DNA from: Chthoniobacterales bacterium
Lineage (GTDB): Bacteria > Verrucomicrobiota > Verrucomicrobiia > Chthoniobacterales > JACTMZ01
Length of the DNA: 64,000 nt
Direction of reading: 5' to 3'
Assembly (NCBI GenBank): GCA_018402585.1
Contig: JAGYIO010000006.1
Span: forward strand, 1 to 64,000
Under the pieces are notes generated by a model, which made no database searches, was not told the origin of the DNA, and was given only the letters and a program-made list of their open reading frames with translations. The translations under genes were made by a program, and so were the position numbers. This document shows positions 8,387 to 19,000 of this stretch, one piece after another; position 1 is the stretch's first letter, and each line of letters starts with the position of its first letter.

Positions 8387-9160
8387 TTAAGCCGGACCTT
8401 TGACGATTTGTGCACGGCGGTAGTGCTCGTCGGGACGCTGGTCGATGCGCTCGCTGACCGCGGAAGGCAGAAACTTCGGGCCGCCGACAGCAAGCGTGCC
8501 AGCGAAGATGCGCGCCCATTTGTCGAGCATAAGAAGAGTGTTGAGCACTTCCTTCTCGCTCGCGCCGAGGGCGACCGGTCCGTGGTTTTCCAAAAGGATG
8601 ACCTTGGGTGCCGTCCCGTGCGCGGCGCGGAACTCGCGAAGAACCCGGCGCACCTCGCGGGCCAGTTCGAGTCCCGGGTCGATGTAGGGCACCGCGGCAA
8701 CATGCCGTCCGCAGACCACGATGGCATCGGGGAAAATGTGGCCAAGGAATGGCTTCGCGCCGTGCTCGGAGCAAAGGACGGACATCACCGACTCGGCGTG
8801 GCAATGGCCGACCCATTGCGCGCCGCCTTCGGTAAGGCAGACCGCGTGCATGAATGTCTCCACCGAGGGCAATTTCGGCGATTGATCGGCGCGGGAATTT
8901 TCCAAGACCTTCCGGACACCCACGTCGTCAAGAGTCTGATCCTCCAAAGCGGCGAGCACCTTCGCCATGTCCACGCGACTGACACCGGATTCGTCGAGGT
9001 CGGACAAACTGCAGCCCGACGATTTGACCAAGAAGGTGCCGTCGCCGAGGTCCACGCTGGTATTGCCTTCGCCGAGGATGGCCAAACGGCGGTCCTCGCG
9101 GCCGATTTGCCGGGACAGGGAAATCAAACCGGACAGAGCATCACCCGTCGGAGGATTCAA
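8387..9160 (-). CDS. Class II aldolase (L-fuculose-phosphate aldolase-like)
   Basis: A 257-residue zinc-dependent class II aldolase/adducin family protein. The phosphate/substrate loop GEGNTSV, the strand [10 protein letters not shown], the His pair in [11 protein letters not shown] and the later HG pair in ENHGPVALG are present. It starts with TTG at 9160, and that codon overlaps the TGA stop of fucU (TTGA), so it was translationally coupled to fucU. It is longer than E. coli FucA (about 215 residues), so related substrates such as rhamnulose phosphate are possible. The fucose context favours cleavage of fuculose 1-phosphate. No fuculokinase gene lies in the window. Confidence 0.8.
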
Positions 9161-9420
9161 GCGGTTACTCCTTTTTTCAAAATGAGGTTGCCGTATTTGG
9201 CGGTTTCGCCCGTCATGACCACGGCGTAGGCGTTCCGGGCCCGATCGTAGAAAGCAAAACGGTCGATGCGCTCCGGTGCGGGAGCATCGGACAACGGCAC
9301 GGATAGCCGCGGGTATTTCTCCTCCACGGCGGATCAGGGTGTCGCCGGGACGGCGCCATCATGACCAGGGCGGGGCATAAGCATCGAGGGCAAAGAGAGG
9401 CAGATTCCGGAGAGGAGGCG
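9157..9420 (-). pseudogene. fucU: L-fucose mutarotase FucU/RbsD family, truncated and frameshifted
   Basis: The C-terminal end reads [19 protein letters not shown], then [19 protein letters not shown]. This is the hallmark end of FucU, which interconverts fucose anomers. Further upstream, pieces of the family sequence ([27 protein letters not shown]) appear in at least three different frames, so several indels have accumulated between about 9300 and 9390. The match stops near 9420, where a DNA ligase-like fragment begins. About half of the protein, including the N-terminal ISPLISPELL-type segment, is gone. The gene was first in the fucose operon and lost its 5' end at this junction. Confidence 0.75.
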
Positions 9421-9423
9421 GGA

Positions 9424-9512
9424 CAATGCACCACCGCCCGCCAGCCGTTGTACTTCGGCTCTGCATACCACAGCCCGATCTTCTTCGGCGCTCTATCAAG
9501 CTTGCCCCCTTG
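9424..9512 (-). pseudogene. Fragment of a second polynucleotide ligase
   Basis: About 30 codons read QGGKLDRAPKKIGLWYAEPK followed by YNGWRAVVHC. AEPKYNGWR resembles the adenylation motif KxDG/KxNG of ATP-dependent DNA/RNA ligases. Nothing downstream of VVHC belongs to a ligase; fucU sequence follows at once. The part before the motif continues into leader-like DNA, including CTGATAAACGCG at 9561-9572, a string also found in the leaders near 11.5 and 16.6 kb. It is a 5' stub left at the junction. The complete ligase at 15202-16089 is a different sequence. Confidence 0.45.
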
Positions 9513-9637
9513 AATTGGGCGAACGGGGTAGGAAATGAGGGAAGGAACTCCCCCGTTTTGCGCGTTTATCAGGCTGTTTTGCCCCGTTCCCCCCTCGCCG
9601 AGGGTGGAGATAGCCCCAGCTTCATTCTCCCCGCTGG

Positions 9638-9889
9638 TCACCTCGGCACCTCCTTCTCGAAAATGGCCAACTCGCCCTCAGTGCGAACCCACCGAAACCC
9701 GCACTTGAGCAAATCCCGCACGACTGCCGTGTCGGCATCATCGCTCACGTAGGCGTCGGGATACTTGGGCTCGGCCGTCAGCGCCCGCACTGCCTCGACC
9801 GACACGCAGGCATACTCGTACCCGCGCCGGCGCGAGGCGAACACCTCGGCAAAGGCGCGGGCCAACTGGTAGGCGTCGCGTTCGTTCAT
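9638..9889 (-). CDS. Small hypothetical protein of the accessory module
   Basis: An 83-residue protein starting MNERDAYQLARAFAEVFASR and ending FEKEVPR. It is acidic to neutral with a predicted alpha/beta mix and has no signal peptide or membrane segment. The ATG overlaps the TGA stop of the upstream Cys-rich gene (ATGA at 9886-9889), so the two are translationally coupled. It is the last intact gene of the module before the junction with fucU. I do not recognise a family. Confidence 0.6.
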   Translation of the reverse strand: MNERDAYQLARAFAEVFASRRRGYEYACVSVEAVRALTAEPKYPDAYVSDDADTAVVRDLLKCGFRWVRTEGELAIFEKEVPR

Positions 9890-10197
9890 GGCCACGCCTC
9901 CTCGGCCGCCATCGCCTCCTCGCGAGCGCGGGCCTCCCAGTATTCGGCCTCGGCTTGGGCGATGGCATCCCACTTGTCCATCTCGCTGCGAAGGCTTTCC
10001 ACCTGCGCCGCGGTGCGAACAAGTCCGTGTCCGTGCTCTTGGTCGTAGCACTGCGGATCACCCTGGCATCCGCAGACCTTGCATTCGGCACAGATGCACC
10101 GATCCACATCCTTGCCGCATACGTCGCACGGCCTGTCTTCATCCCACGGCGTGCCACTGCACCCCGGCGGGTAACTCCATCCAAATATTCCGCTCAT
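9886..10197 (-). CDS. Small Cys-rich, probably zinc-binding protein
   Basis: A 103-residue protein with a dense cysteine cluster: CDVCGKDVDRCICAECKVCG followed by CQGDPQCYDQEHGHG. The CxxC spacing and flanking His suggest one or two structural zinc sites. The C-terminal half is a charged helix rich in Ala and Glu (AEAEYWEARAREEAMAAEEA). Similar short Cys-rich proteins occur in phage genomes, but the function is unknown. It starts 4 nt after the AAA+ gene stop and overlaps the next gene by ATGA, so it belongs to the same transcript. Confidence 0.65.
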   Translation of the reverse strand: MSGIFGWSYPPGCSGTPWDEDRPCDVCGKDVDRCICAECKVCGCQGDPQCYDQEHGHGLVRTAAQVESLRSEMDKWDAIAQAEAEYWEARAREEAMAAEEAWP

Positions 10198-10201
10198 GGT
10201 G

Positions 10202-11125
10202 CTAGTTCAGGCTGAGGTTGAGCTTCGAGTCGTCGCGGCCCGAGTGAACGCGCTTGGTCGATTGCACTTTGCGCACTTGGGCCATGAGCATTTCCTCGGT
10301 CACCCGCCAGTTCTGCGGATCGGGATCGATGGACGCGGCCTCGATCGCATTGAGACACACGTTGAGTAGGTCGCCGCCAGAAAGCCCGTGCGCTGCCATG
10401 GCAATGCCGCGCAGCGTCTGCGGCACGCGGTCGGCGTTGGGCAGATGGAGCCGCAGGATTTGCTCCCGCATGGCCGTGTCGGGCAGTCGGAACTCGATAT
10501 GTCGGGCGATGCGGCGAAGCATGGCCTCGTCGTAGTTGCCAAACAGGTTGGTCGTCATCACGACCACCTCCCCGAACCGATCCAGTTCCTGCATCAGCGT
10601 GTTGCGGTTCTGGTTGATCGAGGTCGAGCAGGATTCTCCGGTGGAGACGCGCTTGGATAAAAGCGAGTCGGCCTCATCGAAGAAGAGCACCGCATCGGCC
10701 TCCCTCGCCTGACGGAAAGCCAGCACGATGTGCTTGGCCGTGTCGCCGAGGTATTTGCTCACGATCGCGCTGTAGTCCACCTGATAGAGCGGCTTGCCCA
10801 GTTGGAGGGCGAGGCCCAGCGCGGCGCGCGTCTTCCCCGTCCCCGGCGGTCCGTAGAAGTTGAGGATGCAGCGGCCGCTCATCGGGCGGATCGTGCTCAG
10901 CTTCCACACCTCCTCCATCTGCTCGGCCATGGCCAGGCTACGGATGGCCGTGGCGATGTCGCCCCTGGCCTCCTCGTGGAGCACGAGCTTATCGAGTTCG
11001 TGCCGCGCTTCGGGCATTACCAGCAGCCCCACTTCAGGCGTCTGGCTTTGTCGCTCCCTTCGGCGCGGGTTGCGGTGGTCGTCTTGGGGCAACTGCTCGT
11101 CGCCCATCATTTCGTTGTCAGGCAT
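10202..11125 (-). CDS. AAA+ ATPase
   Basis: A 307-residue AAA+ protein. Walker A is GPPGTGKT at about residues 92-99 and Walker B is AVLFFDEADSLL at about 142-153. Then follow NTLMQELDRF, the sensor 1 strand VVVMTTNLF and an arginine-finger-like LRRIARHIEFRLPD. The C-terminal helical lid carries GLSGGDLLNVCLNAIEAA. The ATPase core resembles FtsH/CbbX/p97-type single-domain remodellers rather than clamp loaders. The N-terminal 70 residues hold no known domain. The start ATG overlaps the end of the upstream frame and is preceded by AGAAAGGAAA, with a conserved hairpin about 39 nt upstream. A role in remodelling a protein or DNA complex of the module is inferred. Confidence 0.85.
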   Translation of the reverse strand: MPDNEMMGDEQLPQDDHRNPRRRERQSQTPEVGLLVMPEARHELDKLVLHEEARGDIATAIRSLAMAEQMEEVWKLSTIRPMSGRCILNFYGPPGTGKTRAALGLALQLGKPLYQVDYSAIVSKYLGDTAKHIVLAFRQAREADAVLFFDEADSLLSKRVSTGESCSTSINQNRNTLMQELDRFGEVVVMTTNLFGNYDEAMLRRIARHIEFRLPDTAMREQILRLHLPNADRVPQTLRGIAMAAHGLSGGDLLNVCLNAIEAASIDPDPQNWRVTEEMLMAQVRKVQSTKRVHSGRDDSKLNLSLN

Positions 11126-11384
11126 GTCTCTGGTTTCCTTTCTCTTTGCGTTGGCGCGGCCCAGTGCTACGCGACTTGCGTATCTTGGGACGCGAAAAAT
11201 GCTCAGGCACGATCATGGCGGCGGTCGTCAGCTCCTGCGGGCGCAGCACACCGTGCGGCCAATACAGCGGCGTGATCACTCCGCGGTCGATGTTCCATTC
11301 CACGACCACATAGAGCGTGTCGTCGCCATCCCATTCGGGGGCAATGCGCACGCGGTCACCGGCTTGGTAGTTGGGTTCATTCAT
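11118..11384 (-). CDS. Small hypothetical protein, internal start behind leader copy A
   Basis: An ATG at 11384 directly follows a copy of the repeated leader (GAGAGGCCAAGGACT then ATG). It opens an 88-residue protein, MNEPNYQAGDRVRIAPEWDG and then YVVVEWNIDRGVITPLYW. The AGDRVRI..EW start suggests an SH3-like small beta barrel. The frame is open upstream into the transglutaminase-like gene, so this is either an internal second gene or the C-terminal part of a fusion. The last 25 codons (KIRKSRSTGPRQRKEKG) run through the hairpin repeat and are probably read-through. The leader and good ribosome site favour separate translation from 11384. Confidence 0.55.
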   Translation of the reverse strand: MNEPNYQAGDRVRIAPEWDGDDTLYVVVEWNIDRGVITPLYWPHGVLRPQELTTAAMIVPEHFSRPKIRKSRSTGPRQRKEKGNQRHA

Positions 11385-11858
11385 AGTCCTTGGCCTCTCG
11401 CAGTCAGCCGCGCTGAGTCCATCCGATTTTTTCACCATTTTTCGGCGGCCGTTCGGAGTGGGATGAAGTGAAGGAAAGGAAGGCCCCGAAAAGCCTCGTT
11501 TATCAGTCTTAGGAGATCGTTTTCCCCCGCTCGGGGTGGTGAGGGATGGCCGCTTTTCCCATGGCCCATAGTGGTGCGTTTCCAGCATCTGCCGCGTGGC
11601 CTCTTCGAATGCGTAGCGGGTCACCGGTTCACTGATTTCGCCCTGAGCGTAGTAGGCTGACTTCCTTGCGCAGACGAAACGTCCGTTGCTCGGATCAAGC
11701 ACCACATCGCCGATCTCCACCCAGGCATGCCCGTAGCGGATTCCGGCAATCGGTCCCTGCCCCGTCACCATGCCGTGGACGAGCACGATGCCCGGACACG
11801 ACCGGTGCGCATAGAGCAACTTGGCCGCAGCCTCGTAGCAATCGCCCGCGCCCGTCAT
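11118..11858 (-). CDS. Transglutaminase/papain-like Cys-His-Asp protein, open into next gene
   Basis: It starts MTGAGDCYEAAAKLLYAHRS at 11858, overlapping the stop of the upstream AAA+ gene by ATGA. The first 100 residues hold GDCYEAA, YGHAWVEIGDVVLDPSNGR and a Tyr-rich end LETHHYGPW. The Cys, His and Asp placement matches the transglutaminase-like/papain-like fold, whose members are peptidases, amidases or acyl transferases. No stop codon follows: the frame runs through low-complexity sequence and leader copy A into the small protein starting at 11384. The natural domain end is near HHYGPWE (about 11570). It lies in the same operon as a class II amidotransferase and below an amidoligase, so a peptide-bond chemistry role is plausible but inferred. 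Confidence 0.65.
   Translation of the reverse strand: MTGAGDCYEAAAKLLYAHRSCPGIVLVHGMVTGQGPIAGIRYGHAWVEIGDVVLDPSNGRFVCARKSAYYAQGEISEPVTRYAFEEATRQMLETHHYGPWEKRPSLTTPSGGKRSPKTDKRGFSGPSFPSLHPTPNGRRKMVKKSDGLSAADCERPRTMNEPNYQAGDRVRIAPEWDGDDTLYVVVEWNIDRGVITPLYWPHGVLRPQELTTAAMIVPEHFSRPKIRKSRSTGPRQRKEKGNQRHA
11164..11182 (-). promoter_or_regulatory. Hairpin leader element, copy 1 (before AAA+ gene)
   Basis: TACGCAAGTCGCGTAGCAC on the minus strand also occurs at 14117-14135. TACGC and GCGTA form a 5-bp stem around AAGTC. It lies 39 nt before the AAA+ start, and a purine-rich AGAAAGGAAA follows, as at the other copy. It may be an operator or an RNA hairpin near the ribosome site. Confidence 0.5.
11385..11445 (-). 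promoter_or_regulatory. Repeated leader, copy A
   Basis: On the minus strand the segment holds AAAAATGGTGAAAAAA, then GATGGACTCAGCGCGGCTGA, then CTGCGAGAGGCCAAGG just before ATG. The same order occurs before the genes starting at 15084, 16473 and 18648. Further upstream CTGATAAACGAGG at 11494-11506 is shared with the 16.6-kb copy. The GAGAGG/AAGG part is the ribosome site. Unlike the other copies this one lies inside an open frame. Confidence 0.6.
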
Positions 11859-12508
11859 GCCACGGCCCCCATGTCGTAGGCGCTTTCCAGATCGGCAAGG
11901 GCGGCCCGCACACATCCGCCGCAGCCCAGGGCAATTTCATGGGCAAGCGGCTTGGGCGCTTTCCACCGGCGAACCAGCCACGCGGCAATTTCATCGGAGT
12001 CGGGCGCGGCAATCTTCCAAGCTTGGAACCTCGTCTGGAACCGCTCGGTGAGCAGATCAAGCTGCAGGTTGCTCGTGCCGATAAACGCGCGGCCCGGACG
12101 CAGCTTGTCCAGATACGTGAGCAGCAGGTCTTGGCTTTCCTTGCTCGCGCGGTCGAGTTCATTGACCACGCGCACCTCGTAGCCGCCGAACAGGCCTTGG
12201 TAGGCGAGGCTGTCCATCCATCGCCGCACCGAGTCCAACGTGATTTCACGGCCGTTGAAATCCTCAATCGCGAGGGCCTGCTCATCGCACAAGGCCATGG
12301 CCACCATGTCCGCCACGCTCGTCTTGCCAACCCCCGGCGGCCCGTAGAGCAGCACCTTCATCGGCCCGCCGCCCAAGAGCCGCACGCGATGAGCTTTGGC
12401 AACCAATGCGGTCGCAACTTTGCGCGCATGCCCGATCAGGTCCTCCGGCTTACGCGGCCGGAACGAGGCGGGTGTGATTGTGTATCGTTTGGTTTTCATA
12501 GTCTTCAA
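11855..12508 (-). CDS. AAA+ ATPase, clamp-loader/RuvB-like
   Basis: A 217-residue AAA+ protein starting MKTMKTKRYTITPASFRPRK. The N-terminal FRPRKPEDLIGHARKV box is typical of clamp-loader and RuvB/RarA ATPases. Walker A is GPPGVGKT (about residues 56-63). The Walker B position reads VRVVNELDRAS, so the usual DE is replaced by NELD. The sensor strand is RAFIGTSN, followed by TERFQTRFQAW. It may still bind ATP, but hydrolysis may be altered. It overlaps the downstream transglutaminase-like gene by ATGA. With the RarA-C-like protein at 18052-18648 it could form a split RarA-type pair, which is inference. Confidence 0.8.
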   Translation of the reverse strand: MKTMKTKRYTITPASFRPRKPEDLIGHARKVATALVAKAHRVRLLGGGPMKVLLYGPPGVGKTSVADMVAMALCDEQALAIEDFNGREITLDSVRRWMDSLAYQGLFGGYEVRVVNELDRASKESQDLLLTYLDKLRPGRAFIGTSNLQLDLLTERFQTRFQAWKIAAPDSDEIAAWLVRRWKAPKPLAHEIALGCGGCVRAALADLESAYDMGAVA

Positions 12509-12644
12509 TCTTGGTGAGTTCGGCGGCCACTGACTGGGCGCCCTTGCGGTAAACGGTGACGGCGATAAGTTCCGCCCCGCGCCACACGGCCCAATAGCGC
12601 GTCGTGCGGTAGCGGCTGATGTGAATGAAGGGGTGCGCGGTCAT
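12450..12644 (-). CDS. Small phage-like conserved protein
   Basis: A 64-residue protein: MTAHPFIHISRYRTTRYWAV followed by WRGAELIAVTVYRKGAQSVA. Short proteins with a YRTTR.WAV..G.EL..VTVY core are found in phages and plasmids, with no known function. The ATG overlaps the stop of the upstream gene by ATGA. The last 20 codons overlap the start of the AAA+ gene in another frame, which suggests coupled translation. Confidence 0.6.
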   Translation of the reverse strand: MTAHPFIHISRYRTTRYWAVWRGAELIAVTVYRKGAQSVAAELTKIEDYENQTIHNHTRLVPAA

Positions 12645-12841
12645 CGGGCGTCCTCCGGTGTGGAGGGCTCGCGATCTTCCCATCCGCGCGCGGCCTTCTG
12701 CGCTTGCCGGTAGTCGGCAAAACTCCGACCGATCCAGCATTCGAAGCCGCCGCGCTCGTCGCGGCCCCCGCGCACCACGGTCCAGCCGTGTCCGGGCGCC
12801 GGCACAACCTCAGGAGCGTAGAACGTGTTCATTTGCTCCAC
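12641..12841 (-). CDS. Small hypothetical protein of the accessory operon
   Basis: A 66-residue protein with MEQMNTFYAPEVVPAPGHGW and then FECWIGRSFADYRQAQKAAR. The start could be the ATG at 12841 or, better spaced from the upstream stop, the ATG at 12832 (MNTFYAPEVV). It overlaps the genes on both sides. No family is recognised. Confidence 0.55.
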   Translation of the reverse strand: MEQMNTFYAPEVVPAPGHGWTVVRGGRDERGGFECWIGRSFADYRQAQKAARGWEDREPSTPEDAR

Positions 12842-13422
12842 CCCTCCCTGCGGATGCGGGCCTTGAGCGTGTTGATCGGCACATCGAAGTTGGCCGCGGT
12901 CTGCTTGATGCTCTTGGTCTTCGCGTAATGCCGCCGGATGGCCTTCCAGTCCGGCCCGAGGATGGCACGAAGCCGCGCTGGAATGGCCCGTGGGGGCTCA
13001 CGCCGCTCCGCCTTGGATGGTGGGGATGCCCCAAGCGTCGCGGTGGGATCGAAGCGCTGGGGAAGCTTGCTCCCCTCCTCGTCCGTGATCGCTTCCCCCG
13101 CATTGCCCTTGCGGCCCTCGAGCGCGGTCAGGCGGTTCTTGATCGCGGCAAGCTCCTGCTTAACCGCCGCCTCGGCTGCCTCCCGCATGAGCTTGGCCGG
13201 ATCAATCCGTCCATTGCCCACAGACACCCGCGCCATCTTGGCCGTCACGATTTCCTCGATCAGCGCGGCGGGGATTTCCGTGATCGCGTAGACCAGACCG
13301 GTCAGGCTTTCGAGTCGAAGACCACGCTTCATGACCTCCCTCGCCTCGCGGGGGCTTGCCGCCTCCACGCGCTGGTCGAACACGATGCGATCGCCCTGGC
13401 TGGCCACAATCTTGAACGTCAT
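12829..13422 (-). CDS. DNA-binding protein with C-terminal HTH
   Basis: A 197-residue protein. The N-terminal half (MTFKIVASQGDRIVFDQRVE, then EIPAALIEEIVTAKMARV) is helical and charged, with a short coiled-coil-like segment AAVKQELAAIKNRLTALEG. The C-terminal 45 residues read WKAIRRHYAKTKSIKQTAAN then FDVPINTLKARIRREGW. This is a helix-turn-helix of the kind in phage terminase small subunits and Fis-like activators. It overlaps the amidotransferase stop by ATGA. It is a candidate regulator of the repeated leaders, but nothing in the sequence shows that directly. Confidence 0.65.
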   Translation of the reverse strand: MTFKIVASQGDRIVFDQRVEAASPREAREVMKRGLRLESLTGLVYAITEIPAALIEEIVTAKMARVSVGNGRIDPAKLMREAAEAAVKQELAAIKNRLTALEGRKGNAGEAITDEEGSKLPQRFDPTATLGASPPSKAERREPPRAIPARLRAILGPDWKAIRRHYAKTKSIKQTAANFDVPINTLKARIRREGWSK

Positions 13423-14081
13423 GACGCCACCTCCTCGTCATCGGCGTCCGAGCCGGCGGTCCACAGAGCGAGTTGCTCGCCCGCATCGGCCGTGTCACCG
13501 CTCCAACGCACACGGCGCTCGGCGCGTTCCATTTCGTAGACAAAGCCCAAGTTGGACACACGCATGCCGCCCCACGTGCGCCAGTCGCCGTAGAGCTTGG
13601 TCGACTTTGCCGAGTAGAGCACGAACCGCCCCTCGATGTGCTCGAGCACGGAGTTGTCGCGCAGGTGATCAACCAGCAGGGCAATCACCCGGCTGTCGCT
13701 CATCGGCCCACCCACCTTGCGCTTCTGCTTGGCCTCCACAAATTCCAGCGCGCTCTTGTGCCCCGACCACGTGCCGTTGTGGAAAAGGAGCCGAGCCGCC
13801 TTCCCCTCCAGCTTGGTCGAAGACACACGGTCCACAGGGAACGGATGGCAGAGCTGCGGTTGAACACCGCCCACGCTGGCCCACCGGAAGTGGATCACCA
13901 GTTCACCGTCGAGTTTACCGATCAGTTGGCCGACCTCCTCCGGACCGAGGTTCTTCTGCCAATGCACTTTGTCGCCACGGCGCCAGCCCACGCCAGCACC
14001 GTGCGGGTTGGCCGCGTGACAGGCACGCAGCACGTCAATATCCGGCCGAACCTTCGGCGGGCATACAAGGATCACACACAT
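13419..14081 (-). CDS. Class II (Ntn-type) glutamine amidotransferase-like protein
   Basis: A 220-residue protein with Cys at position 2 (MCVILVCPPKV), the usual N-terminal nucleophile of class II glutamine amidotransferases after Met removal. NPHGAGVGWRRGD, VIHFRWASVGGV, HPFPV and LLFHNGTWSGH follow in the order seen in that fold. No synthetase domain is attached, so it would supply ammonia or act as an amidase/peptidase with a partner. The amidoligase gene lies directly upstream (65-nt gap). A hairpin leader copy lies 36 nt before the ATG, with GAAAGGAAAAGAAG as ribosome site. The pairing of an Ntn amidotransferase with an amidoligase is known from comparative genomics of peptide-modification systems. 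Confidence 0.8.
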   Translation of the reverse strand: MCVILVCPPKVRPDIDVLRACHAANPHGAGVGWRRGDKVHWQKNLGPEEVGQLIGKLDGELVIHFRWASVGGVQPQLCHPFPVDRVSSTKLEGKAARLLFHNGTWSGHKSALEFVEAKQKRKVGGPMSDSRVIALLVDHLRDNSVLEHIEGRFVLYSAKSTKLYGDWRTWGGMRVSNLGFVYEMERAERRVRWSGDTADAGEQLALWTAGSDADDEEVAS

Positions 14082-14116
14082 ATCGCTTCTTTTCCTTTCT
14101 TAGTTGTTGGTTGGTT

Positions 14117-14137
14117 GTGCTACGCGACTTGCGTAGC
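14117..14137 (-). promoter_or_regulatory. Hairpin leader element, copy 2 (before amidotransferase gene)
   Basis: GCTACGCAAGTCGCGTAGC is a perfect 7-bp inverted repeat around AAGTC on the minus strand. It lies between the amidoligase stop and the amidotransferase start, 36 nt from the ATG. The copy at 11164-11182 has the same loop and almost the same spacing. A stem this short without a T run is unlikely to be a terminator; an operator or translational hairpin fits better. Confidence 0.55.
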
Positions 14138-14145
14138 TTGAGGGC

Positions 14146-15084
14146 TTAAAGTGGCGCATGGGGGTAGCGGAGATCGAACTGGCGGCAGAGGCGCAGGGCC
14201 TCCTTGCGGTATTGGCGGAACTCCGTGTGCAGGCAGCCGAAGAGGCCGAGGGCGCAGTCGCGCTTGCTGCCGGTCCATCCGAGGTAGTCCCACAGGAACT
14301 TGACCGCATCGGCCGCCGTGCGCGTGCGGGCCTCCTGCACCTTGTTCTTTTTGAAGGCCCCGAGGCACTCCACCTCAGCCGCGCGGCGGCAGAGCCCGAT
14401 CGCCGTGGCCACGTGGTGCTGCACCTTGGCCACGCTGGTCGTTCCGGCAAAGGCACGGAATTCGACCAGTCCGTGGCTGAAGAGCTTGCGGAAGTTGATC
14501 ATGCCGCGACCACAGGCAATGGCGGCCGATTCCTTGATCCGCAGCTCGGGATGCCGCTCCATCGTCTTGACCAAGTTGGCCACGTCGGCGGCAAACGTGT
14601 GGCTGTAGCTATTGACGTGCCGGCCGGCGCCGGTCTGGCCGTAGATTGAGCGCGCGTGCCACTGGGCAATGTGGGCAAGTTTGCGGGCGAACTCGCCGCG
14701 CTTGGCATGGTCGCTTGAGCCAATGATCGAATCCACGCTCACCGTGACATGGCAGCCGCAGCTGTCATTGACCGTGGCGCCGATCGTGATGGTGAATTCC
14801 ACGAACTCGCAGAGCGCGGCCACGCCCGCCTCCCCGTGCAAGATCGGGGAGACGAATTCACAGGCCACGCCACTGCCGCGGATCGAGCCGTCGTGCTCGG
14901 CCCGCCATGCGTTGCGGTTGAACTTGGGCGCGGTCACAACCGTGCCATCCGACTTACGCAACCCACCGGTGACTTGAATGCCACGGTGGTAGTTGCCCAC
15001 TTGAACCCCGCATCCGGCGGGGATGACTGTTTCCAGCTCCACTCCGAAGAGCACGCTGGCGGCTTTGGTATCCGGCTTTTTCAT
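14146..15084 (-). CDS. Amidoligase_2-family COOH-NH2 ligase
   Basis: A 312-residue protein starting MKKPDTKAASVLFGVELETV. The motif series is that of the Amidoligase_2 family, a glutamine-synthetase-like ATP-dependent ligase fold: metal-binding FGVELE at about residues 13-18, AWRAEHDGSIRG, CEFVSPILHGEAG, NDSCGCHVTVSVD and, later, GLVEFRAFAGTT. Such enzymes join a carboxyl and an amino group to form amide or peptide bonds on small molecules, peptides or proteins. The start follows leader copy B with CAAGGGGGTT before ATG. The next gene downstream is a class II glutamine amidotransferase. Substrates are unknown. Confidence 0.8.
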   Translation of the reverse strand: MKKPDTKAASVLFGVELETVIPAGCGVQVGNYHRGIQVTGGLRKSDGTVVTAPKFNRNAWRAEHDGSIRGSGVACEFVSPILHGEAGVAALCEFVEFTITIGATVNDSCGCHVTVSVDSIIGSSDHAKRGEFARKLAHIAQWHARSIYGQTGAGRHVNSYSHTFAADVANLVKTMERHPELRIKESAAIACGRGMINFRKLFSHGLVEFRAFAGTTSVAKVQHHVATAIGLCRRAAEVECLGAFKKNKVQEARTRTAADAVKFLWDYLGWTGSKRDCALGLFGCLHTEFRQYRKEALRLCRQFDLRYPHAPL

Positions 15085-15195
15085 AACCCCCTTGTCCTCT
15101 CGCAGGCAGCCGCACTGAGTCCATCAGTTTTGATCACCATATTTTTGCTCCATTTGGCTCTCGCCCAACGAGTTGGCATGGTTTTTGACACGGCC
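15085..15195 (-). promoter_or_regulatory. Repeated leader, copy B
   Basis: The part near the amidoligase start holds ATGGTGATCAAAACTGATGG, then ACTCAGTGCGGCTGCCTGCG, then AGAGGACAAGGGGGTT before ATG. The upstream part shares AAAACCATGCCAAC with copy C, so B and C are alike over about 115 nt. The segment fills the gap between the DNA ligase stop and the amidoligase start and probably holds the promoter and ribosome site. Confidence 0.6.
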
Positions 15196-15201
15196 CGTTT
15201 T

Positions 15202-16089
15202 TTAGAGATCCCAGGCTTCTCGGAAGCCCAGAAACTTCGGGAATCGGGGCGCTTCCTTGGCACCGCTCGGTTGGTGGCTGAACTTCACCAAACGTCCGAT
15301 CAGCGCCTCCTTCTTGAGCCACAGGCTCACCCGGTCGATGCCCCCGAGCACGTGGTTGTAACCGAGCCGGAATTCCACGCCCGTATCGAGCGCTCGGACA
15401 ATGAATCCGCCGAGTTCTCCACGGCCTACCATCCCTGCTTTGGAGAGGCTGCGCTTCGTCCGACCGAACGCATCACGCTCGGCCTCGTTCTGGTTGCTCA
15501 TGCCCTCGTAGGGCTCAAGCACCTCAGCCTCGGCATCGGCGAATCGCTTGATCTTGAGCAGCCAGCCTTCGCGCTCGGTCGATCGGCCGCACTTATACGG
15601 CCCCGCCGGATCACGGACCATCACGCCCTCGTAGCCGGCGGCCACGCACTTATCCTCGTAGGCCGCAAGCTCATCGGCGTTGTTGATCTCGACCGGCAGA
15701 ACCTTCTCCACGTGCTCCCACTGGGGCAACCGCTCCAACTCCCGCACGCGGCAGGCATACGGCACGTCGATGCCCTCGCTCACGTAATCGAACACGTGGA
15801 ACACGAAGTCCGGCTCACCGCTCTCGCGCCCGATCGCACTCGTGGTCGCGTTGAACGTGCCGCCGCGCAGCATCAGCTCGCCGTCCAAGCCATCGGGCAA
15901 GTTCGCCTCGATCCATTCGCGGGCAAACGTGTTGCTGATCGGCTTGAACGAGCGCGTCAGCGCTTGGCCTGCGATCTTCAAACACCGGATGCCATCCAGC
16001 TTCGGCGTGGCCAAGACTGGAAAGCTTAAGGCTTCGGGTACGTCGCACTTGCCGGCCAGCATCGGCTTCTTAATGGCGGAGGCGCTCAT
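15202..16089 (-). CDS. ATP-dependent DNA ligase, phage type
   Basis: A 295-residue ligase starting MSASAIKKPMLAGKCDVPEA. Motif I is PVLATPKLDGIR, with the adenylated Lys near residue 30. Motif III is the VFHVFDYV region, motif IV EGVMVRDP and motif V WLLKIKRFADAE. A C-terminal OB-type domain follows (LGGFIVRALDTGVEFRLGYN). The size and lack of extra domains fit T7-like phage ligases that seal nicks during replication or repair. It overlaps the upstream small gene by ATGA. It supports a phage or plasmid origin of the module. Confidence 0.88.
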   Translation of the reverse strand: MSASAIKKPMLAGKCDVPEALSFPVLATPKLDGIRCLKIAGQALTRSFKPISNTFAREWIEANLPDGLDGELMLRGGTFNATTSAIGRESGEPDFVFHVFDYVSEGIDVPYACRVRELERLPQWEHVEKVLPVEINNADELAAYEDKCVAAGYEGVMVRDPAGPYKCGRSTEREGWLLKIKRFADAEAEVLEPYEGMSNQNEAERDAFGRTKRSLSKAGMVGRGELGGFIVRALDTGVEFRLGYNHVLGGIDRVSLWLKKEALIGRLVKFSHQPSGAKEAPRFPKFLGFREAWDL

Positions 16090-16274
16090 TGTGTCACCTC
16101 CTCGCCAACACTTTTACCCTCGGACTCCGCAAACGCCCGGATCGCCTCGATGTGCTCGAGGATCATCTTGGCTTTGCCCAGTCCGAACTGGAACGGCCAC
16201 CGCGATCCCGCATTAAGCACGATCAGTGGCTGCCCCTTGTATTCCGACACAACGGCGGGTTGATTCGCGTTCAT
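16086..16274 (-). CDS. Small hypothetical protein
   Basis: A 62-residue protein: MNANQPAVVSEYKGQPLIVL, then FQFGLGKAKMILEHIEAIRA. It looks like a small beta sheet followed by a helix. It sits between the 65-residue gene and the DNA ligase, with an ATGA overlap to the ligase. Proteins of this form (EYKG.P.I.L....FGLGKAKMILEHIEAI) occur in phage operons; the function is unknown. Confidence 0.6.
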   Translation of the reverse strand: MNANQPAVVSEYKGQPLIVLNAGSRWPFQFGLGKAKMILEHIEAIRAFAESEGKSVGEEVTQ

Positions 16275-16275
16275 G

Positions 16276-16473
16276 TCAGGCAGCCGCGACGATACGGCCC
16301 ATCAGGGTGTTGAGGTTGAACTTGCGCAAGCCGCGGCTTTCCACGTCCCAGACCGTGATCAGTCCGCGCTTGCCCAGATTGGCGGCAGCGGTCGTAAAGC
16401 GCATCGTGCGGGCTGCGCCCGAGGCTTTAATGAACGTGCCGATGTATTCACTGCGTTTGGTGCTGTTTTTCAT
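16276..16473 (-). CDS. Small basic hypothetical protein behind leader copy C
   Basis: A 65-residue basic protein: MKNSTKRSEYIGTFIKASGA, then RTMRFTTAAANLGKRGLITV. The ATG at 16473 is chosen because it follows CAAGGGGGTT, as at the other leader copies. An in-frame ATG 13 codons upstream lies inside the leader. It may bind nucleic acid given its charge, but no family is recognised. It is the first gene of a unit with the 62-residue protein and the DNA ligase. Confidence 0.6.
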   Translation of the reverse strand: MKNSTKRSEYIGTFIKASGAARTMRFTTAAANLGKRGLITVWDVESRGLRKFNLNTLMGRIVAAA

Positions 16474-16613
16474 AACCCCCTTGGCCTCTCGCAGGGGGCT
16501 CACCAAATCCATCAGTTTTAGCGCACCATATTTTTCACCATTTTTCGGTCGCCCTCCATGTTGGCATGGTTTTCGGCACGAAGGCCGCAGTTGGCCGTTT
16601 CCTCGTTTATCAG
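16474..16613 (-). promoter_or_regulatory. Repeated leader, copy C, with upstream box
   Basis: The gene-proximal part reads AAAAATATGGTGCGCTAAAA, CTGATGGATTTGGTG, then CTGCGAGAGGCCAAGGGGG before TTATG. AAAACCATGCCAAC, shared with copy B, is upstream, and CTGATAAACGAGG at 16601-16613 is shared with copy A. The fuller form suggests a promoter or activator site some 130 nt from the start and a conserved 5' leader after it. From 16614 to 16852 no gene or further signal was seen. Confidence 0.6.
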
Positions 16614-16852
16614 CCGTAGGAACTCACGAGCCATCGGGAGCCATAAGAAGCGTTTGGCTCGGGTGGTATGGGGGTAGCCGCGAAGCCGACCTTGAAGCTG
16701 GCTAAGCAGCAAATTCTGGGACCGAAGCCCGCGGCAAGCCAAAGCAGCTGCGGCATCCCCGTGGCCGCGCTTCGGATGCTACCGGATACTGCCTGAGCCG
16801 TTACGTCATTTTTCAGTAGCCTTAGCCTCGCATCGATTCGCGCGCGCCATTT

Positions 16853-17170
16853 TCAATCGCTTGGATTGTTTTTTTCGGATGTTCGGGTCTTCCAGTAGTC
16901 CGGGTCACGATGAAGATGCATGATGGCCATGACCGCGATGGCATCCGGTTTGACCCGGAACAAGACGCCGAAGGGGAAGGTCTTTGTGAGACAGCGTCGG
17001 ACATCCCCTTCAACAAACGGGTAGAGCGCGGGATTTATTGCGATTTTGTTCAGGGCGTCTTGAACTGCCGTGAGGAATCGCTTCCCGAGATCTCCCTGCC
17101 GGGACTCGTACCACACAGCTGCGTCAATCATCTCTGCGTCGGCATCGGGATGGAAGCGAACAGGCCTCAT
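16853..17170 (-). CDS. ParE/RelE-family toxin
   Basis: A 105-residue toxin starting MRPVRFHPDADAEMIDAAVW. Family marks are WYESRQGDLGKRFLTAV, the Arg-Pro region VRRCLTKTFPFGVLFRV and the C-terminal HLHRDPDYWKTR. ParE-type members poison gyrase and RelE-type members cleave mRNA; which applies cannot be told here. The ATG overlaps the antitoxin stop by ATGA (17167-17170). The pair probably helps keep the module in the chromosome. Confidence 0.88.
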   Translation of the reverse strand: MRPVRFHPDADAEMIDAAVWYESRQGDLGKRFLTAVQDALNKIAINPALYPFVEGDVRRCLTKTFPFGVLFRVKPDAIAVMAIMHLHRDPDYWKTRTSEKNNPSD

Positions 17171-17397
17171 GCGAGGGCCGCATGCGCTTTGGCAAACACG
17201 TCGGCGGACTCGAGCAGATCGATACGGCCTTCGTCCATCTCTCGGCACCGCTTCCGGATCTCGTCGCGCCAAGCCGGCGAGAGTTCGTCACCGGGGTTGG
17301 CGTCAAGGCTCTCTATGAGGCGCTCAGCCACGAAAGCACGCGCATGCGGGGAAAGGGAAAGTGCCTCCGTAACGATTTTTTCAGCCGATGTGGTCAT
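17167..17397 (-). CDS. Antitoxin of addiction-module family
   Basis: A 76-residue protein, MTTSAEKIVTEALSLSPHAR followed by AFVAERLIESLD, with a C-terminal acidic helix MDEGRIDLLESADVFAKAHA. This is the addiction-module component family (TIGR02574-like) that pairs with ParE/RelE toxins. It is upstream of the toxin and overlaps it by 4 nt, the usual order. Antitoxins of this kind often repress their own promoter. The gap 17398-17626 should hold that promoter; no clear box was picked out. Confidence 0.85.
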   Translation of the reverse strand: MTTSAEKIVTEALSLSPHARAFVAERLIESLDANPGDELSPAWRDEIRKRCREMDEGRIDLLESADVFAKAHAALA

Positions 17398-17626
17398 GCA
17401 GAAAAACTACTTTTTGCGCGCTTCGTCGTCAATTCGCTGATTTGCAACAAATACGTCGGATTGCGAAAGCCGCGAGGCTTGCGACTTAGTGGACTCAACA
17501 GTTCCACTTGAACATAAGTAGTGCTTCATGAGCACCGCAGACAGGGAGGCCAGCCCCAAGAGGTGGCGACCATTTGGCCTACGTCGGGATCAAGGCACGG
17601 GCCGATTTCTAGTCGCGCGCGCTTCT

Positions 17627-18055
17627 TTACTGAATTCGGGTCTCGCGCAGGAAGCGCTCGATCTCCGTCAGGGCAAATCGAGGCGAGCGCAAAGCGTAGC
17701 TGGGGTTGAGTAAACCACGTTTGCACAAGCGCCACAGGGTAACTCGTGAGATACCAAGCGCCTTGGCCGTTTCCTCAGAACTAAGCGCCAACCTATCGCG
17801 GATTGGATCCACCGGCACAGCAACCGGAACGAGCGCAGGCTGCGGCGGCGGGCTCATCGCCCGCTGTGCCGCCTGAATGCAGCGCTCAAGTTGCTCCGCT
17901 GTGAGATTCACAAACACCGGCTCGGGCGGAAGCTCATCGCCCAGCATGCCCTCAAGTATCTCCATCGGCTCCCTCTTGAGCATCGGAGCAAGCCCATGCT
18001 CCACCAGCGTGCGCAAGTGGATGCGGTCGGGCAACGTGGGGTCATCAGCCCTCAT
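17627..18055 (-). CDS. HTH protein with excisionase/MerR-like domain
   Basis: A 142-residue protein. The N-terminal 80 residues (MRADDPTLPDRIHLRTLVEH) are helical and end in a Pro-rich linker MSPPPQPALVPVAVPV. The C-terminus reads LSSEETAKALGISRVTLWRL followed by CKRGLLNPSYALRSPRFALT. This is the winged HTH_17 fold of excisionases and MerR-like proteins. The ATG overlaps the stop of the upstream gene by ATGA. In a mobile element an excisionase-like protein can direct excision or act as a regulator. No integrase partner is present. Confidence 0.7.
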   Translation of the reverse strand: MRADDPTLPDRIHLRTLVEHGLAPMLKREPMEILEGMLGDELPPEPVFVNLTAEQLERCIQAAQRAMSPPPQPALVPVAVPVDPIRDRLALSSEETAKALGISRVTLWRLCKRGLLNPSYALRSPRFALTEIERFLRETRIQ

Positions 18056-18648
18056 GCGTCGACCAGATGATCAAAGAGGCCTTGCTCCAGCGGCACCAGT
18101 GCTGCCTGCTCGGCCTTGAAGAAGTCCGCCTTGGTCTTACCCATCGACTTGCCGCGGCGCGTGTGGCAATCGAAGGCATAGTCGGTAACCGCAACGTATT
18201 CCGGCGCGCTGCGCAGTTCATCGGCCAGCGTATCCGGATCAATGCCGCGCATTTCGTCGTAAACGAAGTTCTGCAAGTGGTCGGCATCACGGCTCTTCTT
18301 GGCCGCGCAAAGCAGGATCACCGCCTTGGAAATAAAGATGCGGCCGCGGGCACGGCGACCAGAGAGGTTTGCATTGATCATCGCATACGAGTCATGCAGC
18401 GCCTTGACCTCCTTGGTGATGATGCCCCAGCAATCCTCGGCCGACACGGTGAGGAGCCGTTTCCACACGTAGTGACCGAAGCCGCTGGCCCAAAGCTCCA
18501 AAGCCCAGTAACCGGCGTATGGAGTTTCCCCGCGCCGGATCGCCTTTTGCATGGCCGAGCTGACCTCGCCGAAATCGTAGCCTCTGATCGTTCTAAGCCT
18601 CATGCCGTGCCCCGTCAGTCCGAACATGTCTGGTGTGAATTTTTGCAT
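18052..18648 (-). CDS. RarA/MgsA C-terminal-domain-like protein
   Basis: A 198-residue protein starting MQKFTPDMFGLTGHGMRLRT. The stretch VSSAMQKAIRRGETPYAGYW followed by WKRLLTVSAEDCW matches the helical C-terminal domain of RarA/MgsA replication-repair ATPases (S.MQK..R......A.YW...RL..ia.ED). The ATPase part is missing, so it could work with the separate AAA+ protein at 11855-12508. The ATG follows leader copy D, with GAGAGGCCAAAGGGG as ribosome site. It is the first gene of the minus-strand series and faces the divergent Xre regulator. Confidence 0.65.
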   Translation of the reverse strand: MQKFTPDMFGLTGHGMRLRTIRGYDFGEVSSAMQKAIRRGETPYAGYWALELWASGFGHYVWKRLLTVSAEDCWGIITKEVKALHDSYAMINANLSGRRARGRIFISKAVILLCAAKKSRDADHLQNFVYDEMRGIDPDTLADELRSAPEYVAVTDYAFDCHTRRGKSMGKTKADFFKAEQAALVPLEQGLFDHLVDA

Positions 18649-18787
18649 CCCCTTTGGCCTCTCGCAGGAGTCGCACGGAATCCATCAGTTTTTTCCACCA
18701 TTTTTCGCATCTCAAAAGGGTATCGCGTTGAAGGCACAGAACCTAATTTCCTTGGGGGTGCATTGAGGGTGCGACCTTGACTCGGCG
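18649..18787. promoter_or_regulatory. Divergent control region with leader copy D
   Basis: Copy D of the repeated leader lies at 18649-18708 on the minus strand: AAAAATGGTGGAAAAAACTG, ATGGATTCCGTGCGACTC, CTGCGAGAGGCCAAAGGGG. The remaining part up to 18787 must carry the promoter of the Xre gene. A divergent Xre gene next to the first leader copy is the layout of a phage-type switch. No clear paired operator was picked out by eye. Confidence 0.5.
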
Positions 18788-19000
18788 ATGCGCATATCGC
18801 GTAGTGGCATCGTGACACGGAAGAAATTCGCTAAGCTCCTCAAGGACTACCGCGAGAGACGCAGGTTCACGCAGGAAGACGCAGCCAAGCACTTGGGCGT
18901 TTCCGTGCGCACGCTGCAGAACTGGGAGATCGCCCGGAATATGCCGAGGGGGTTTGGACTGCGGGCACTCGTGACGACTTTGGAAAAGGGCCGGAAATAG
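18788..19000 (+). CDS. Xre-family HTH regulator
   Basis: A 70-residue single-domain regulator: KFAKLLKDYRERRRFTQEDA followed by AKHLGVSVRTLQNWEIARNM. It is a clear HTH_3 with the Q-E-D-A helix and the recognition helix VSVRTLQNWE. There is no effector or protease-sensitive domain. It is the only plus-strand gene of the module and is divergent from leader D, so repression of the minus-strand genes is the likely job. The start is the ATG at 18788; a GTG at about 18812 is an alternative. Confidence 0.8.
   Translation: MRISRSGIVTRKKFAKLLKDYRERRRFTQEDAAKHLGVSVRTLQNWEIARNMPRGFGLRALVTTLEKGRK

Follow-up and report, generated by a model that had tools for sequence, protein, structure and literature searches.

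The window analysed here is a 64,000-nucleotide stretch of contig JAGYIO010000006.1 from a Chthoniobacterales bacterium (GCA_018402585.1; assembly of 2.46 Mb in 35 contigs), and its feature of interest is a pair of adjoining genes encoding an amidoligase and a class II glutamine amidotransferase. An earlier sequence-only reading had grouped these genes, within the span 9638-15084, with genes for a transglutaminase-like (TG-like) protein, a Cys-rich protein and two AAA+ ATPases (here AAA1 and AAA2). All of the open reading frames (ORFs) that it listed are present on the minus strand, and the tight order with ATGA overlaps was confirmed at five junctions: amidotransferase/HTH (the helix-turn-helix protein gene), HTH/12641, 12641/12505, AAA2/TG-like, and Cys-rich/9638. 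This span is part of a larger phage-derived block, ~9354-19000 (Table 1), which beyond 15084 has a DNA ligase, small ORFs, a ParE-type toxin-antitoxin pair, an excisionase-like protein, a protein resembling the C-terminal part of MgsA/RarA (MgsA-like) and an Xre regulator.

The amidoligase matches PF12224 (Amidoligase_2) at 31.6 bits, above the cut-off of 22. Because the amidoligase alignment, used as a profile against the PDB, gave nothing meaningful, its fold was judged from an AlphaFold model (predicted local distance difference test score [pLDDT], 95.1; predicted template modelling score [pTM], 0.93). The model matches phage amidoligases at E values of 1e-11 to 1e-7 (those of Salgado, tf and CW02 are among them) and, among solved structures, glutamine synthetase, GshAB and YbdK at E values of ~1e-4 to 5e-3. 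The acidic/His/Arg core of the glutamine-synthetase-like ligase fold (Glu16, Glu18, Asp65, Glu76, His112 and Arg210) is invariant in 28 sequences. Profile search and structure prediction thus agree with the original assignment of this protein as an Amidoligase_2-type ligase. A tblastn search of annotated phages for close homologues gave only ~24-40% identity; in a genome from the same class as the window, which has the block, the amidoligase is 60% identical. The window amidotransferase, taken alone, matched no Pfam family, GATase_6 and GATase_7 included. A profile built from 23 aligned family members finds PurF and GlmS (E values of 5e-6 to 9e-5), and because 15 of the 23 members match GATase_6 or GATase_4, the miss appears to reflect a limit of sensitivity and not the loss of a defining residue. 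Cys2, the N-terminal nucleophile right after the initiator Met, is invariant in the 23 sequences, as are, in alignment with PurF, the glutamine-binding Arg66, the oxyanion pair Asn102-Gly103, and Asp129. The proposal of a class II amidotransferase with Cys2 therefore stands at the level of the family, although the window protein by itself lacks a Pfam match.

The two genes are also strictly paired. IMG/VR loci were collected with the MgsA-like protein as query, so that the collection carries no bias towards the pair, and a locus counted towards pairing only if its amidoligase gene was complete and had 400 nt or more of sequence after it. The amidoligase is present in 35 of the 80 IMG/VR loci found in this way, and the amidotransferase lies immediately downstream on the same strand in every testable locus (33/33 from IMG/VR and 19/19 from GTDB, 52/52 overall), with a gap of 12-83 nt. 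Because of this invariable adjacency, the amidoligase and amidotransferase are the tight unit of the block, in line with the suggestion that the ligase is linked to an Ntn-type amidotransferase. Between related copies of the two genes, the ratio of nonsynonymous to synonymous substitution (dN/dS) is 0.04-0.23, so both proteins are under purifying selection in the phage lineage, a constraint that is no proof of activity in the window copy. Around the pair, ~70 related IMG/VR and GTDB loci share the order MgsA-like protein, DNA ligase, amidoligase, amidotransferase, HTH protein and clamp-loader-like AAA+ protein, often then followed by a Cdc48-like AAA+ protein. In loci with enough flank, the order is kept by the DNA ligase in 33/44, HTH in 32/39, AAA2 in 28/36 and AAA1 in 11/18. 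All 36 related loci on genome contigs bear verrucomicrobial names.

Table 1. Features of the phage-derived block and the evidence for each
Feature	Position	Strand	Evidence
Xre-type regulator (phage repressor-like), divergent from early genes	18788..19000	+	phrog transcription-regulator matches; DNA matches related phage contigs
MgsA/RarA C-terminal-like phage protein, first early-block gene	18052..18648	-	phrog_16866 E 1.8e-61; PF12002 18.4 bits, under cut-off 27; 80 IMG/VR relatives
HTH_17 excisionase/regulator-like protein	17627..18055	-	PF12728 34.2 bits
ParE/antitoxin pair	16853-17397		
Small conserved phage protein	16276..16494	-	49-76% identity in many related phage contigs
Small phage ORF	16086..16274	-	Kept mainly in closest relatives
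ATP-dependent DNA ligase, phage type	15202..16089	-	PF01068 33.5 bits; phrog_114 E 1e-55
Repeated leader element, immediately upstream of amidoligase start	15090..15144	-	Direct repeat family D1; same motif and position in related phages
Amidoligase (Amidoligase_2/COOH-NH2 ligase)	14146..15084	-	PF12224; AlphaFold model; fold matches
Class II (Ntn) glutamine amidotransferase, Cys2	13419..14081	-	Family profile finds PurF/GlmS; invariant catalytic residues
HTH protein, C terminus weakly terminase-small/sigma-r4-like	12829..13422	-	32-91% identity in related phages
Small phage ORF	12641..12832	-	In a few relatives
Small phage ORF, ATGA-overlapping	12450..12642	-	In a few relatives
AAA2, clamp-loader-like AAA+ ATPase	11855..12499	-	phrog_5846 E 4e-14, phrog_168; PDB T4 gp44 and RFC
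Small GDCYEAA/GHAWVE/LDPSNG protein, called TG-like	11538..11858	-	PF13471 15.7 bits, under cut-off 26
Second leader copy, upstream of AAA1 unit	11388..11442	-	
Small KOW-like ORF overlapping AAA1 start	11118..11384	-	Kept in L026 and L141
AAA1, single-domain Cdc48/p97-type AAA+ ATPase	10202..11125	-	PF00004 89.5 bits; phrog_3757 E 5e-54; PDB Cdc48/p97
Cys-rich small protein	9886..10197	-	Homologues in closest relatives only
Small phage ORF	9638..9889	-	Kept in L026, L028, L141
Truncated second ligase-like phage gene, broken left end of remnant	9354..9548	-	52% identity to 207-aa phage protein

The phage origin proposed for the block is borne out by IMG/VR contig L024, which is 93% identical to the window in DNA across 3.6 kb and encodes both terminase subunits, large and small, as well as an endolysin, at 3-5 kb from its MgsA-like gene. 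Portal, capsid, maturation protease and tape-measure proteins are encoded on larger related contigs, and the terminase of one of these is 64% identical to that of L024. A search of the related phages with the phrog_2 terminase gave weak scores only, because their terminase is of the phrog_15 type. Within the island (~9354-19000), no terminase, endolysin, portal, capsid, protease or tape-measure gene was found, and at the left end the phage DNA breaks off inside a second ligase-like gene, the remaining part of which matches residues 3-71 of a 207-aa phage protein. What survives in the window is thus a truncated prophage remnant, probably the early genes of a tailed phage of Verrucomicrobiota. 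At 9157-9548 the truncated gene meets the 3' part of an apparent host fucose mutarotase gene, and this junction suggests that a deletion took away the remainder of the prophage. No direct-repeat att pair at tRNA-Met was seen among the repeats listed. In the intact relatives L147 and L153, AAA1 is followed by a conserved protein of unknown function, a DUF6573 protein and the second ligase-like protein.

Four phage genes have a repeated leader, roughly AAAATGGTG..AAAACTGATGGA..CCTGCGAGAGG[AC]CAAGGGG..ATG, that either immediately precedes the gene start or spans it. Besides the two copies that precede the amidoligase and the AAA1 unit (15090-15144 and 11388-11442), the window has copies at 16455-16519 and 18651-18705, and the leader keeps its positions in related phages L024-L027, L111 and L141. 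Rfam gave no match for it, and elsewhere in the host genome its core found nothing but one chance-level match with 2 mismatches. The leader may be a phage promoter or an RNA control element. Because copies precede 15084 and ~11384, the arrangement suggests that the block 9638-15084 comprises at least two transcription units.

Similar caution applies to the other genes of this block. The TG-like protein scores about 14-16 bits against PF13471, under the cut-off of 26, and although many of the top PDB fold matches of its model (pLDDT 80) are papain-like, none has an E value below 0.45. The Cys-His-Asp triad is kept in three close homologues, and both Cys and Asp are replaced in a distant homologue on L034. 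The gene occurs in 1/36 related loci with enough flank; further copies lie in L141 (uncounted because its amidoligase gene is split) and, distant and on the opposite strand, in L034. Homologues were found in L026, L141 and L034 only, and none in annotated phages. The transglutaminase assignment is thus weak, and neither the TG-like nor the Cys-rich gene is conserved with the amidoligase-amidotransferase pair. The two AAA+ assignments held (AAA2 matches PF00004 at 35.5 bits, AAA1 more strongly), and by sequence AAA2 is predicted to be clamp-loader-like and AAA1 a generic Cdc48-type protein, both sitting among phage replication genes. These observations bear on the proposal that all of the genes form a single tagging or modification system, in which the ligase would form an amide, the TG-like protein would cut or transfer, and the ATPases would handle the tagged target. 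Tight gene overlap and the frequent presence of AAA2 and AAA1 downstream of the pair fit such a system, but with a TG-like gene that is nearly always absent, has lost its Cys in L034 and has no significant fold match, with an AAA2 of clamp-loader type, and with other phages that have the pair without TG-like or AAA genes, we consider it very unlikely. Of the module as first described, the pair, and often the AAA genes, are conserved together; the leaders suggest more than one transcription unit, and the TG-like gene is rarely found with the others.

AAA1 also matches the PADLOC IetA models (E 1.7e-33), and a prophage-borne anti-phage defence, for example a relative of IetAS, would account for that resemblance. 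IetAS requires a subtilase partner, IetS, and by Pfam none is present among the island proteins; moreover, AAA1 is equally close to Cdc48/p97 and is located in phage early regions, and the amidoligase, amidotransferase and TG-like protein have no PADLOC match. Such a defence system is hardly probable at all, and for the phage defence function once suggested for the locus we found no evidence beyond a published superinfection idea, itself a prediction. The proximity of the DNA ligase and replication-type ATPases to the pair, together with ParB-like and methyltransferase-type genes in L024, would be compatible with a role in DNA base modification or counter-restriction, the pair building an amide on a modified base. 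We regard this as highly improbable: a base hydroxymethylase of the thymidylate synthase type was not found in 22 related phage records, and there is no modification enzyme among the island proteins.

In these families, class II amidotransferases free ammonia from glutamine, and amidoligases activate a carboxylate with ATP. From this family mechanism we infer that the amidotransferase would supply ammonia from glutamine. The amidoligase would convert a carboxylate into an acyl phosphate at the cost of ATP, and ammonia, or another amine, would then attack this activated group, giving a primary amide in the case of ammonia. Overall, the likely interpretation is that the truncated early-gene block of a tailed Verrucomicrobiota phage carries a two-protein amide synthetase. 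Its most likely task, though a conjectural one, would come during infection, when a cell-wall precursor or a gamma-glutamyl compound would be amidated or conjugated. Of the neighbours, the HTH and MgsA-like proteins, the DNA ligase and the clamp-loader-like AAA2 would serve phage DNA metabolism and regulation, AAA1 would be a separate remodelling ATPase, and the TG-like and Cys-rich proteins would be accessory. That the pair acts on the cell wall is a tentative idea, as both substrate and benefit are conjectural. A stronger form, in which a self-sufficient, ammonia-channelling synthetase would amidate a peptidoglycan precursor and the altered wall would defeat rival phages or their lysins, seems decidedly doubtful, and it is just as doubtful that the pair would then be the split counterpart, with a different ligase fold, of GatD/MurT-like cellular wall-amidating enzymes. 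Several points weigh against the two-protein synthetase: the window copy is a truncated remnant and perhaps silent; the amidotransferase alone escapes Pfam; the amidoligase model's best solved-fold matches outside the phage amidoligases (glutamine synthetase, YbdK and GshAB-type ligases) have low TM-scores (0.27-0.45) at 9-16% identity, with a substrate pocket that is not comparable; and the island has neither an ATP-grasp protein nor a cyclotransferase, so that the fuller published cassette is incomplete here.

Amidoligase and amidotransferase genes have been reported in LUZ24-like, tf, phiEco32-type, RIO-1-type, OM43 and Marvin phages (PMC3890496, PMC3517423, PMC5498523, PMC10580990), so the core pair, at least, belongs to a described system, contrary to what had been supposed. 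Annotations of such pairs go back well beyond ten years, and cell-wall modification and superinfection exclusion, suggested for phiEco32-type phages, are cited as a prediction credited to Iyer and others (PMC10580990, PMC5498523). As in the window, the LUZ24-like, tf, phiEco32-type and RIO-1-type podovirus cassettes have an Amidoligase_2 ligase near a class II amidotransferase in the early region (PMC3890496, PMC3517423, PMC5498523, citing Iyer et al. 2009). They differ in that the island proteins, the part of the lineage searched with Pfam for ATP-grasp, include neither that family nor a second COOH-NH2 ligase, and in that the window lineage is another phage type, with a phrog_15 terminase and verrucomicrobial hosts. 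In Mycobacterium phage Marvin (gp105-gp106) and Arthrobacter phage Ottawa (gp65-gp66), the amidoligase adjoins the amidotransferase in the same orientation as in the window, but identity is only ~20-25% and no common surrounding genes were seen. In OM43 and Planctomycetes phages, both enzyme families also occur and are described as auxiliary metabolic genes; the phages and hosts are different, and the functions are proposals (PMC10580990, PMC10945688).

The podovirus cassettes share a further gene, for gamma-glutamyl cyclotransferase, with L026 (8909-9292) and L111 (8139-8519), the two long relatives that stand nearest to the window phage, and this gene ties the lineage to the published kind of cassette. 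It lies between the excisionase-like gene and a small protein gene, where the window holds the ParE/antitoxin pair. Its presence would also suit a role in auxiliary nitrogen or gamma-glutamyl metabolism, in which the pair would make small gamma-glutamyl amides or shift glutamine nitrogen to aid replication, with no wall target. For a chronic phage of planctomycetes that carries amidoligase, amidotransferase and cyclotransferase genes, promotion of nitrogen use has been reported (PMC10945688). In the present lineage the cyclotransferase is rare (1/22 records), and it is not in the window, and no metabolic genes stand beside the pair; we therefore judge this role unlikely and continue to favour the amide synthetase acting on a cell-wall precursor or gamma-glutamyl compound. 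What is already known is the occurrence of the pair in many phages. New here are its fixation in a verrucomicrobial phage lineage, the repeated leader before four genes, the placing of the TG-like and ATPase genes outside the core, as neighbours, and the recognition of the window copy as a remnant. The lineage presents a minimal form, two adjoining genes found together in every testable locus, under purifying selection and with a confident ligase model, which makes it a convenient case for testing what phage amidoligase/amidotransferase pairs do. The analysis also brings to light a group of verrucomicrobial phages that appears to be widespread.

Recurrent site-specific insertion was considered as the cause of broken amidoligase genes in several genomes and was dropped, as integration is clear only in L111/L141 and the other cases look like contig ends or decay. 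At L111:10798 and L141:10001 (JACSRX010000035.1), a ~28 kb element encoding a tyrosine integrase (PF00589) sits inside the amidoligase gene. It interrupts the VKFLWD codons, where the junctions carry duplicated GTGAAGTTCCTCTGGGA, and the prophage gene is here used as an attachment site.

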